A stretch of 56,372 bases of DNA from a virus. The translations under genes were made by a program, and so were the position numbers. Positions 28,569-31,727 of the stretch are shown one piece after another; the stretch's first letter is position 1, and every line of letters begins with the position of its first letter. The notes below the pieces were generated by a model that had not been told where the DNA came from, searched no databases, and was given only the letters and a program-made list of their open reading frames with translations. The stretch lies in IMG/VR virus record IMGVR_UViG_3300032893_000057, positions 1 to 56,372 of that record. One strand, 5' to 3'.

Positions 28569-28762
28569 GCCGCCTCTTCGCCTGGGTGCTCCCGGACAGG
28601 AGCCTGACGTGGGACCCGTTCCGGCCGCTCTCGGCCGAGTTCTGGCTGACCGGGATGGAGACCGTGCTCACCGGCCTCACCGCCGTCGCGGGCCGCTGGG
28701 CGTTCCCTGGTGAGCCGCTGCCCGACCTGACGACGGTCCGGGACCGCCGTGAGCGTCTCTGA
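28565..28762 (+). CDS. Small protein with probable CTG start
   Basis: The frame has no ATG before the middle of the protein. CTG 28565 overlaps the preceding stop as CTGA, exactly like the ATGA junctions elsewhere, and gives MSRLFAWVLPDRSLTWDPFR; GTG 28586 is the fallback. The 65-residue product overlaps the terminase start by 14 bases. Function unknown. Confidence 0.4.
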   Translation: MSRLFAWVLPDRSLTWDPFRPLSAEFWLTGMETVLTGLTAVAGRWAFPGEPLPDLTTVRDRRERL

Positions 28763-31727
28763 GCGTCGCTACCGCATCGACGCCGACCTGAGCGATCGGG
28801 AGCGCCTCGCCGTCCTGCTGGCGTTGCGCGACAAGCGCGACCTGGCTGCGGTCGAGGCCGAGCGCCAGATGCTCGCCGAGCGCCAGGCCGTCGACGCCGT
28901 GTACACCCGCAAGGTCGGGCTGTACCACGACGACCCCGTCGCCTGGGCGCACGACTGCGTCATCTGGCGCCCCGGCGAGGGCCTGACCGCCTACCAGGCC
29001 GAGACCTTCCACGCCATGATCGAGCACGGCCGCGCCGCGGTGCGCGGCCCGCACGGCCTGGGCAAGACCTGCATGGAGTCGCTGGCGGTGCTCTGGTTCG
29101 CCCTCACCCGCGACGCCGCGGGCGAGGACTGGAAGGTGCCGACCACCGCGTCGGTCTGGGAGCAACTGAAGAACTTCCTCTGGCCCGAGATCCACAAGTG
29201 GGCCAAGCGCCTGCGCTGGGACGTGATCGGCCGCGAGCCCTTCGACACCCGCCGGGAACTGCTCCAGTGGAACCTGAAGCTGAACCACGGCGCCGCCTTC
29301 GCCATCAGCCCCGACGACCCCGCCCACCTGGAGGGCGCGCACGCCGAGCAACTGCTCTACGTCTACGACGAGTCCAAGGCCGTGAGCGACGCCACCTTCG
29401 ACGCCTCCGAGGGCGCGTTCTCGACCGCTGGCTCGGGCGGCACGGTCGCCTACGCCCTCGCCGTCTCGACGCCTGGCGAGCCCCAGGGCCGCTTCTACGA
29501 CATCCACGCCCGGCGCCCCGGCTTCACCGACTGGTGGGCGCGCCACGTCACCGTCGAGGAGTGCATGGCCGCTGGCCGGGTCACCGAGGAGTGGGTCTAC
29601 AACCGGGGCCTGATGTGGGGGATCGACTCGGCGGTCTACAAGAACCGCGTGCTGGGCGAGTTCGCCTCCTCCGCCACCGACGGCGTGATCCCGCTCGCCT
29701 GGGTCGAGGCGGCCAACGCCCGCTGGCGGATGCGGTACGAGCCCAACGGCGAGAAGCTGGGCGCCCACCGCGAGCCGCACCAGGGCACGCGCGCCGTGCT
29801 CCAGCCCGGCGAGAAGCTGCACACGATCGGCTGCGACATCGCTGCGGGCGGCGAGGACAAGACCGTGCTGGCGCTCCGCCAGGGCAACGCCATCGTCGAG
29901 CTACGCCGGGACGGCTACACCGACGACACGACGATCACCGCCGACCGGATCGTCGCCATCCAGCGGGCCCACGGCGAGCCCATGGCGATCGTCGACGCCA
30001 TCGGCGTGGGCGCTGGCGTGTTCAACGACATCCGCCGCGAGCACACCCCCTGCGCCCCGTTCATCTCCTCGGGCGCGACCAAGCGCCACGACCTCTCCGG
30101 CGAGTTCGGCTTCGCCAACTGCCTGACCGGCGATGCCCGGGTCTTGCCGATCGGCGAGCTACGCCGGGTCTACCGGGCTCGGCACAATGGCCCCCTCGTC
30201 CGGGTCCAGATGGCCTCGGGAGACGAGTTCACCGCCACCCCGAACCACCGCGTACTGGCGCCGAGTGGATGGGTCGCCGTCCATGCGCTGAGCGTGGGCG
30301 ACGACCTGGTCAGCGCCGAGGGCCGAGATTGGGCTGGCCCGAGTCACCCACACGTAGAGGACGTGCCAGCCTCGATCGGCGAGATGTACCGAGCGGAGCG
30401 CGAGCGAGGCGTCACCGAGCGGGTAGACGCCCGAACGGTGAACTTCCACGGCGACCGTCCCGTGGGTCAGGTCGATGTTGTACGTGTCGTCGGCGACCTG
30501 CTGGCCGTGCACGAACCCGGGCGGGAGCAGGTCGATCAGTGTGCGTTCGTAGGCTCGCTGGTGGGCCAGAGTCCGCTGCCTGGTCAGGGCGGCCTTGGCG
30601 CCCATCGGGTTCTGGACGACGGGTCGCCGGAACGGCACGTAGATGACCCGCGACCAGTCGCCCGCGAGGTGGTGGCGCTTGCCGGTGGCGACGTGCTGGG
30701 TAGCCCACAACCGGTTCGCCGTGCCGATGTCGCGCAGGGCCACCCCGGCCTCGGTCAGTTCGCGCCGCACGACCCACTCCCCGGTGTGAAGGCTCTTGGC
30801 GAGGGCGAGGACGGACTCGCCGCTCTCGTAGCGCCGGACGAGATAGACGCGGTCAAGGGGCCGCCGCCTGAGAGCGGCCGCCTCGGCTCGCGTCCGTCGC
30901 TCGATCCCATGTTCGGCGAGGATGCGTCGCACGACGCACCGGTCGATACCGAGCCCGGCGCAGATCGAGCGTTCCCCTTCGCCGCCGATGTACCGACGGA
31001 CCAGGTCGTCAGCATCGAGATCATCCCGCCGAGCAGGCATGGCACCATCCGCGTCTACACGGTCGAGACCTCGACCGGCGCCTATCGCACTACCAGCGTA
31101 GTCCACAAGAACTGTCGGTCCTGGGCCTGGTGGAACCTGCGCGAGATGCTCGACCCCGCCAACGGCATGGACCTGGCGCTGCCGCCCGACGACCTGCTGA
31201 CCGGCGACCTGCTCGCCCCGAAGTGGCGGGAGGTGTCCGGCGCGCGCATCCAGGTCGAGTCGAAGGACGACATCGGCAAGCGCCTCGGGCGCTCGACCGA
31301 CAACGGCGACGCCGTCGTCTACGCCTACAGCCGCTCGGGCGGCTCGTGGGCTGCGCTGTACGCCGGAGAGCCCGAGCAGACCGAGGAGGACGACGACGTG
31401 CCCCTGCCCACCCAGAAGCCCGCGCGCTCAGGCGGCTGGGGCGACGTCTACGCTCCCAGCGGCGGGGCGGCCCCGGATGCCAATGCGGCCCGGCCGGAGT
31501 CGCCTCGCCCCATCCAGACCAGCGGCTACTTCGCCGGGAGCCCGGTGATCGAGGCCAAGGCCCAGCCGAAGAGCGGCCCCGTCCCGACCGACGTCCTCGT
31601 CGACGAGCGGGCGCTCAACCGGCCCTGCCGCTGCGGCAACCTGCGCCGCGACCACTCCGGCGACCGCCATGACGGCCCCTGCACCGACGTCGAGTGCTCG
31701 TGCGAGCGGTTCGAGCCGCCCCGCTGA
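28749..31727 (+). CDS. terL: Large terminase subunit precursor with intein
   Basis: A 992-residue precursor from GTG 28749. ATPase motifs: Walker A GPHGLGKT at residues 100-107 and Walker B-like LLYVYDESKAV. Nuclease motifs: GCDIAAGGEDKTVLA, then AIVDAIGVGAGVFNDIR, and the last acidic group RSTDNGDAVVYAY after the intein. The intein (residues 458-788) splits the nuclease domain between FGFAN and CRSWAWW; excision leaves a 661-residue terminase. The protein cuts concatemers and drives DNA into the head. The Cys-rich C-terminal tail (PCRCGNLRRDHSG) is unusual for TerL. Confidence 0.9.
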   Translation: MSVSERRYRIDADLSDRERLAVLLALRDKRDLAAVEAERQMLAERQAVDAVYTRKVGLYHDDPVAWAHDCVIWRPGEGLTAYQAETFHAMIEHGRAAVRGPHGLGKTCMESLAVLWFALTRDAAGEDWKVPTTASVWEQLKNFLWPEIHKWAKRLRWDVIGREPFDTRRELLQWNLKLNHGAAFAISPDDPAHLEGAHAEQLLYVYDESKAVSDATFDASEGAFSTAGSGGTVAYALAVSTPGEPQGRFYDIHARRPGFTDWWARHVTVEECMAAGRVTEEWVYNRGLMWGIDSAVYKNRVLGEFASSATDGVIPLAWVEAANARWRMRYEPNGEKLGAHREPHQGTRAVLQPGEKLHTIGCDIAAGGEDKTVLALRQGNAIVELRRDGYTDDTTITADRIVAIQRAHGEPMAIVDAIGVGAGVFNDIRREHTPCAPFISSGATKRHDLSGEFGFANCLTGDARVLPIGELRRVYRARHNGPLVRVQMASGDEFTATPNHRVLAPSGWVAVHALSVGDDLVSAEGRDWAGPSHPHVEDVPASIGEMYRAERERGVTERVDARTVNFHGDRPVGQVDVVRVVGDLLAVHEPGREQVDQCAFVGSLVGQSPLPGQGGLGAHRVLDDGSPERHVDDPRPVAREVVALAGGDVLGSPQPVRRADVAQGHPGLGQFAPHDPLPGVKALGEGEDGLAALVAPDEIDAVKGPPPESGRLGSRPSLDPMFGEDASHDAPVDTEPGADRAFPFAADVPTDQVVSIEIIPPSRHGTIRVYTVETSTGAYRTTSVVHKNCRSWAWWNLREMLDPANGMDLALPPDDLLTGDLLAPKWREVSGARIQVESKDDIGKRLGRSTDNGDAVVYAYSRSGGSWAALYAGEPEQTEEDDDVPLPTQKPARSGGWGDVYAPSGGAAPDANAARPESPRPIQTSGYFAGSPVIEAKAQPKSGPVPTDVLVDERALNRPCRCGNLRRDHSGDRHDGPCTDVECSCERFEPPR
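30120..31112 (+). other. Intein in TerL with no sense-strand endonuclease
   Basis: The intein begins at Cys 458 (CLTGDARVLPIGELRRV, block A), has block B (SGDEFTATPNHRVLAPSGWV) with the TxxH motif, and ends with block F (IRVYTVETSTGAYRTTS) and block G (VVHKN, then Cys as the first extein residue). Penultimate residue is Lys rather than the usual His. About 190 residues between the splicing halves show no LAGLIDADG or HNH motif and read like the shadow of a gene on the other strand. Splicing is inferred from the intact blocks. Confidence 0.85.
30159..31040 (-). CDS. Antisense homing endonuclease inside the intein (Vsr/DUF559-like)
   Basis: A 293-residue protein, start ATG ending at 31040 with GGATGG four bases upstream. 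Residues 10-45 and 63-100 are two HTH-like segments (DDLVRRYIGGEGERSICAGL; LVRRYESGESVLALAKSLHT). Residues 160-232 fit a Vsr/DUF559-type PD-(D/E)xK nuclease: YERTL (E165), GQQ, YNIDL (D190), VAVEVH (E199), LALRSV and GWHVLYVW. Its codons line up exactly with those of the intein on the other strand, so it must avoid TTA, CTA and TCA. Its last 40 residues lie opposite the N-terminal splicing region and may be non-essential. Confidence 0.75.
   Translation of the reverse strand: MPARRDDLDADDLVRRYIGGEGERSICAGLGIDRCVVRRILAEHGIERRTRAEAAALRRRPLDRVYLVRRYESGESVLALAKSLHTGEWVVRRELTEAGVALRDIGTANRLWATQHVATGKRHHLAGDWSRVIYVPFRRPVVQNPMGAKAALTRQRTLAHQRAYERTLIDLLPPGFVHGQQVADDTYNIDLTHGTVAVEVHRSGVYPLGDASLALRSVHLADRGWHVLYVWVTRASPISALGADQVVAHAQRMDGDPSTRRQYAVVRGGGELVSRGHLDPDEGAIVPSPVDPA

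Follow-up and report, generated by a model that had tools for sequence, protein, structure and literature searches.

A candidate homing endonuclease gene lies antisense to an intein in a phage terminase gene

The terminase intein and the gene opposite it

The window analysed here is the viral record IMGVR_UViG_3300032893_000057 at its full length of 56,372 bases, with a GC content of about 70%. Its forward strand carries a reading frame (28749..31727) that encodes a 992 amino acid precursor of the large terminase subunit (TerL), whose residues 49-463 match the PHROG terminase large subunit with an E value of 9e-21. The frame stays open through an insert of 331 amino acids (30120..31112, forward strand), and the boundaries of this insert can be read directly from the sequence as Cys1 at 30120, Asn331 at 31112 and Cys+1 at 31113. 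Its N-terminal splicing region (amino acids 1-65; 30120..30314, forward strand) contains blocks A and B (CLTGDARV ... TATPNHRVLA), including Cys1 and a TxxH element that reads TPNH, and exhibits sense-specific constraint as well as AF2 pLDDT values above 90. Blocks F and G (RVYTVETSTGAYRTTSVVHKN; 31050..31112, forward strand) have pLDDT values of 85-94 and end at KN/C, so that the C-terminal Asn is followed by one of the residues (C, S or T) expected at the +1 position.

In the AF2 model both ends of the insert adopt the Hint fold (pLDDT >90), and a Foldseek search places this model closest to the Mtu RecA intein (2imz), with a probability of 1.00 but an E value of only 5e-3. The NCBIfam profile intein_Nterm exceeds its cut-off (E = 1e-5) when the window intein is scanned alone. 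The Pfam profile Intein_splicing falls under its cut-off for the window intein, yet reaches E ≤ 0.01 in 49 of 52 family members. By all of these tested features the TerL insert is an intein, with splicing as its predicted activity. The two splicing regions are separated by a short FHGD motif (amino acids 109-112; 30444..30455, forward strand) and by a middle section (amino acids 127-287; 30498..30980, forward strand) that is predicted to be disordered (pLDDT <50) and whose constraint score is near zero (z about 0). Profile scans of this middle section returned no match to a nuclease in the intein's own reading frame.

On the complementary strand, the same DNA encodes a protein of 293 amino acids (30159..31040, reverse strand), with an ATG at 31040-31038 and a stop codon at 30161-30159, and this gene shares identical codon boundaries with the sense intein. 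The antisense protein is modelled by AF2 with a pLDDT of 88 as two helix-turn-helix (HTH) units followed by a PD-(D/E)xK core. The first HTH unit (amino acids 10-43; 30912..31013, reverse strand) is defined by its AF2 helices, and the second (amino acids 64-97; 30750..30851, reverse strand) is additionally matched by Pfam HTH_58 at amino acids 66-110 (E = 1e-9). The nuclease core (amino acids 145-279; 30204..30608, reverse strand) carries E165 (30548-30546), D190 (30473-30471) and E199 (30446-30444), three residues that are invariant across 67 aligned homologues, together with the string GWHVLYVW. Its modelled elements follow the alpha-beta-beta-beta-alpha-beta order of such cores (H163-171, E179-184, E187-193, E196-202, H211-222 and E226-232), and the E...D...ExK signature is present except that the textbook Lys is absent; the sequence reads EVH, with H201 at the Lys position. 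The VAVE motif that contains E199 directly faces the sense FHGD motif.

Assignment of the nuclease fold relies on sequence profiles and on a library of viral protein structures, since a Foldseek search of the PDB with the nuclease model produced no match with E < 0.001. Pfam MTES_1575 is recognized in 41 of 78 antisense family members and DUF559 in six, HTH families are matched as well, and a profile search of the PDB with the antisense nuclease leads to 3hrl. The viral structure library yields full-length relatives (best E = 1.4e-14) and Vsr/DUF559 relatives. By profile and model, the minus-strand protein is nuclease-like. A preliminary description of this locus, made from the sequence, had proposed a continuous TerL frame through an intein with recognizable splicing blocks, a middle section that lacks endonuclease motifs, and a Vsr/DUF559-like protein with two HTH segments on the complementary strand. 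These proposals agree with our results, and the antisense frame yields exactly the stated 293 amino acids, with E165, D190, E199 and GWHVLYVW where that description placed them. That description had suggested modelling both strands, and had also allowed for a minus-strand protein that resembles no nuclease, an outcome contradicted by the profile matches and the AF2 model.

Relatives of the antisense gene and their hosts

A tblastn search with the antisense protein matched 34 phage records. All matches that were examined run antisense to annotated coding sequences, mostly those of a MuF-like or minor head protein, and in two of these records the existing annotation reads ‘minor head protein with inserted intein’. 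At 13 of 13 phage loci the two genes are in the same codon-aligned phase as in the window, the sense coding sequence is free of stops and the ends of an intein are visible. A further locus resides on a Chloroflexota plasmid in which phage genes are also present. For a broader survey of viral and genome contigs, we used a hand-made degenerate DNA pattern for the antisense motif YN[LIV]D[LIF]x4[VI]A[VI]E, which is blind to the other strand, and accepted as homologues those that matched a nuclease HMM with E<1e-20. At least 163 distinct nuclease homologues were recovered by this route, whereas a scan of viral contigs with the single protein found none. Genome loci are distributed among Actinomycetota, Chloroflexota, Bacillota, Pseudomonadota, Acidobacteriota, Chlamydiota and other phyla.

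The arrangement seen in the window is shared by the family. Among the 163 homologues listed, the facing codon-aligned frame is open over the whole nuclease in 162, and over 42,962 codons this phase contains one stop, whereas the other two phases contain 2,520 and 1,348. The sole stop occurs at a locus where the HMM envelope overruns the end of the sense ORF (L175). Profiles for both the N- and C-terminal intein regions match in 143 of the 163, and 19 of the other 20 end at a contig edge. The one exception (L061:960-2783) has an intact antisense nuclease but no recognizable C-terminal splice block, although it is not at a contig end, and possibly represents a decayed intein. A Cys occupies the first position in 135 of 139 inteins, and the +1 residue is C, S or T in 141 of 141.

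As the preliminary description had noted, shared codon boundaries mean that sense stops can arise only opposite antisense TTA, CTA and TCA codons, and the sense frame is kept open because the antisense gene avoids these three. The same description attributed stable two-strand coding to GC-richness. Stable coding is indeed observed, but a need for high GC is rejected, as 22 loci below 45% GC (range 36-45%) retain the arrangement, with an open facing frame, by strict avoidance of TTA, CTA and TCA. This distinction matters for the view that the antisense ORF is a by-product, in which high GC keeps the frame open and its apparent conservation only reflects that of the sense protein. At 70% GC an open antisense frame costs little: given the codon usage of the exteins, its chance probability in the window is about 0.24, which is unremarkable. 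The case is made by the relatives, for which the same calculation gives values down to 1e-12 for single loci below 45% GC.

The hosts of these inteins are diverse and include MuF, Phage_min_cap2, TerL, UDG, a UDG-PolA fusion, dCMP deaminase and head maturation protease. Several individual loci deserve mention. One MuF/protease gene contains two tandem inteins, each with its own antisense nuclease (L018:2-4006), and a fusion of UDG with a family A DNA polymerase is split by an intein of the antisense-nuclease class (L033:7024-10434). The PHROG family phrog_15127 (‘head protein’) contains the intein itself, and consequently mislabels unrelated hosts (UDG, PolA, TerL) as head protein.

Insertion is patchy. 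When the exteins of Gordonia phage Vivi2, which carries a MuF intein, are joined, the resulting 600 bp align contiguously to intein-less Gordonia phages, with up to 94% identity. Such intein-less alleles with contiguous flanks are common: they also occur in Guernseyvirinae, and intein-less homologues of TerL have contiguous flanks at 50% identity. The antisense nuclease is thus encoded in an intervening element that close relatives lack, and no free-standing nuclease homologue exists among the matches listed from viral and genome contigs. These distributions bear on the idea that the antisense nuclease is real but serves mainly a purpose other than homing, such as exclusion of competing phages or other DNA processing. 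Nucleases with HTH and DUF559/Vsr-like domains do vary in their roles. Confinement to inteins (162-163 of 163 among the matches listed) is what would be expected of a homing nuclease, and the occurrence at several sites and in several hosts, alongside close relatives whose alleles lack the intein, likewise makes a principal role outside homing quite improbable.

Selection on the two strands

Substitutions were analysed in 15 close pairs of loci, about eight of which are independent. Within the overlap, dN/dS is 0.20 for the antisense reading and 1.02 for the sense reading, whereas the sense reading outside the overlap yields 0.13 in the exteins and 0.22 in the splice blocks. The distribution of changes among codon positions follows the same division. 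Counts at sense positions 1, 2 and 3 are 943/316/612 in the overlap, where most fall at position 1 (the wobble position of the antisense codon), and 742/568/1350 in the exteins, where most fall at position 3. GC content by codon position flips from.69/.48/.97 to.85/.49/.76 in the overlap of the window, and relatives behave alike. For the TerL clade, which includes the window, the middle DNA aligns at 81-91 bits when read antisense versus 21-35 bits when read as sense.

Column-wise measures of constraint locate the sense-strand signal. Little or none is present at sense amino acids 127-290 beyond what the antisense reading imposes, whereas the splice blocks and FHGD are constrained. At the place where FHGD and VAVE face each other, constraint is found in both readings (z 6.7-10.8). 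Coding occurs on two strands of this DNA, and both are under selection. The preliminary description had considered that related inteins might conserve the sense residues and not the antisense ones; judged from these comparisons, they do the opposite in the middle section. The trees of the nuclease and of the splicing domain agree in part (Mantel correlation 0.59, null maximum 0.13), a result that is weak evidence for movement of the two as a unit because both regions share DNA.

Conservation of FHGD in the sense protein is the one feature, besides the ease of keeping a frame open at high GC, that would fit the by-product view. That view is ruled out by the position-specific pattern of substitution, the low-GC loci and the dN/dS values. 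The confident antisense fold opposite a disordered sense section and the matches of antisense proteins to curated HTH and nuclease families also run counter to it, and we regard it as hardly credible.

Start signals and a proposed mechanism

In most relatives the antisense gene begins 20 codons from the C-terminus of the intein, opposite the His of block F (GHVYNL), and its start is often preceded by GGAGGTT. A count of such Shine-Dalgarno sequences overstates their frequency, since it keeps the most favourable among several possible starts, and the clean evidence comes instead from tests of codon choice. Relative to usage in the exteins, synonymous choice in the sense frame is biased at the block F His (CAT, which gives antisense ATG; p = 2e-9 and 3e-7) and at a Leu (CTC, which gives GAG in the antisense Shine-Dalgarno; p = 7e-6 and 3e-20). 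A -10-like box is found in the stretch around the antisense start at 64 of 97 loci, versus a mean of 22 and a maximum of 30 under a null of synonymous recoding. In the HN class, extended -10 boxes number 13 of 57 versus 1.2; in the SN class, they number 11 of 30 versus 1.5. A few SN-class inteins carry TTGACA over their last codons, which is possible because the usual penultimate His is replaced by Ser. Near-consensus sigma-70 boxes overlap the C-terminal splice motif at the 3ʹ ends of five inteins (L127, L050, L090, L026 and L004).

We restrict claims about promoters and Shine-Dalgarno sequences to the relatives, because no sigma-70-like promoter for the antisense gene was found in the window and its only candidate ribosome-binding element is a weak GGATGG upstream of the antisense ATG (31045..31050, reverse strand), at a position where one TerL relative (L075) has AGGAG. 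These weak signals might indicate that the antisense gene of this particular phage is intact yet silent, a remnant held open by the sense frame. Such silence appears unlikely, given that every family-invariant residue is present, GC content by codon position still tracks the antisense frame, and antisense conservation persists in comparisons within the TerL clade.

We favour, with a probability of roughly 0.9, the reading that the TerL insert is a mobile intein and that its homing endonuclease comes from a gene of its own on the complementary strand, with splicing, expression, cleavage and homing all inferred. On the sense strand, the precursor would be translated through the whole insert, and the two ends would form a Hint splicing domain, expected to cut the insert out and join the TerL halves, with the roughly 160 residues of the sense middle serving as a spacer. 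On the antisense strand, the same DNA would encode a free HTH-HTH-PD-(D/E)xK nuclease, which in many relatives appears to have its own start codon, Shine-Dalgarno sequence and promoter-like boxes inside the intein. This nuclease would presumably cut intein-less alleles, and repair would then copy the whole insert into them.

Inteins of this kind seem to constitute a widespread, unannotated class of mobile element. It is also probable that the homing nuclease of this class is a self-contained antisense gene, in which promoter boxes, Shine-Dalgarno sequence, start codon and coding region all lie inside the intein and overlap its splicing motifs, and in which catalytic residues are opposite a constrained sense motif at one place. 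If so, the timing and dose of the nuclease would be uncoupled from late expression of the host gene. The mobility of phage inteins that apparently lack nucleases could be explained by a nuclease on the other strand that annotation pipelines have missed, which suggests examining both strands of other mini-inteins as well. More generally, the family offers a large natural sense-antisense overlap in which selection can be measured on either strand, in a fixed phase from low to high GC, and a new nuclease family, presumed to act in homing, whose members have two HTH units. A splicing element and a mobility gene can evidently be fully overprinted, with independent expression judged by the start signals.

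Comparison with known systems

No antisense intein nuclease was encountered in the literature searched, a search that did not extend to two works that may bear on priority: a 2025 preprint by Gosselin et al., said to concern non-canonical intein architecture in actinobacteriophages, and a 1998 article by Gorbalenya, reportedly on non-canonical inteins. Split inteins in fractured genes are accompanied by a gene for an EDxHD/Vsr-like endonuclease; there the host gene is in two parts and the nuclease lies between the halves. The antisense family likewise pairs a splicing element with a Vsr-like nuclease made as a protein in its own right, but its intein is unbroken and contains the nuclease gene on the opposite strand. 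Profile matches indicate that the nuclease core is shared with DUF559 and REase_MTES_1575 proteins (PF04480, PF18741; PDB 3hrl), which are ordinary genes; the antisense family adds two HTH units and, among the matches listed, occurs only antisense to inteins.

Classical large inteins, such as PI-SceI, the Mtu RecA intein and phage TerL inteins (PMC5050341), carry an in-frame homing endonuclease. The window intein resembles them in its Hint domain, its Cys1/Asn/Cys+1 residues, its insertion at a conserved motif, its patchy presence and the location of a nuclease within intein DNA. It lacks their in-frame nuclease: here the nuclease has its own gene and start signals on the opposite strand and forms no part of the spliced intein, and the sense middle is a disordered spacer. 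The ShiLan-type insertion is a same-strand element that hides an out-of-frame HNH nuclease, lacks a splicing domain and shows no detectable ribosome site (PMC11855218). Both systems place a homing nuclease in another frame of an insert that is open in the frame of the host gene. The system described here departs from the ShiLan type in that its nuclease is antisense and of the PD-(D/E)xK type, its insert is a real intein and its start signals are conserved. The ShiLan arrangement is the nearest of the described architectures compared, and the antisense intein differs from all of them.
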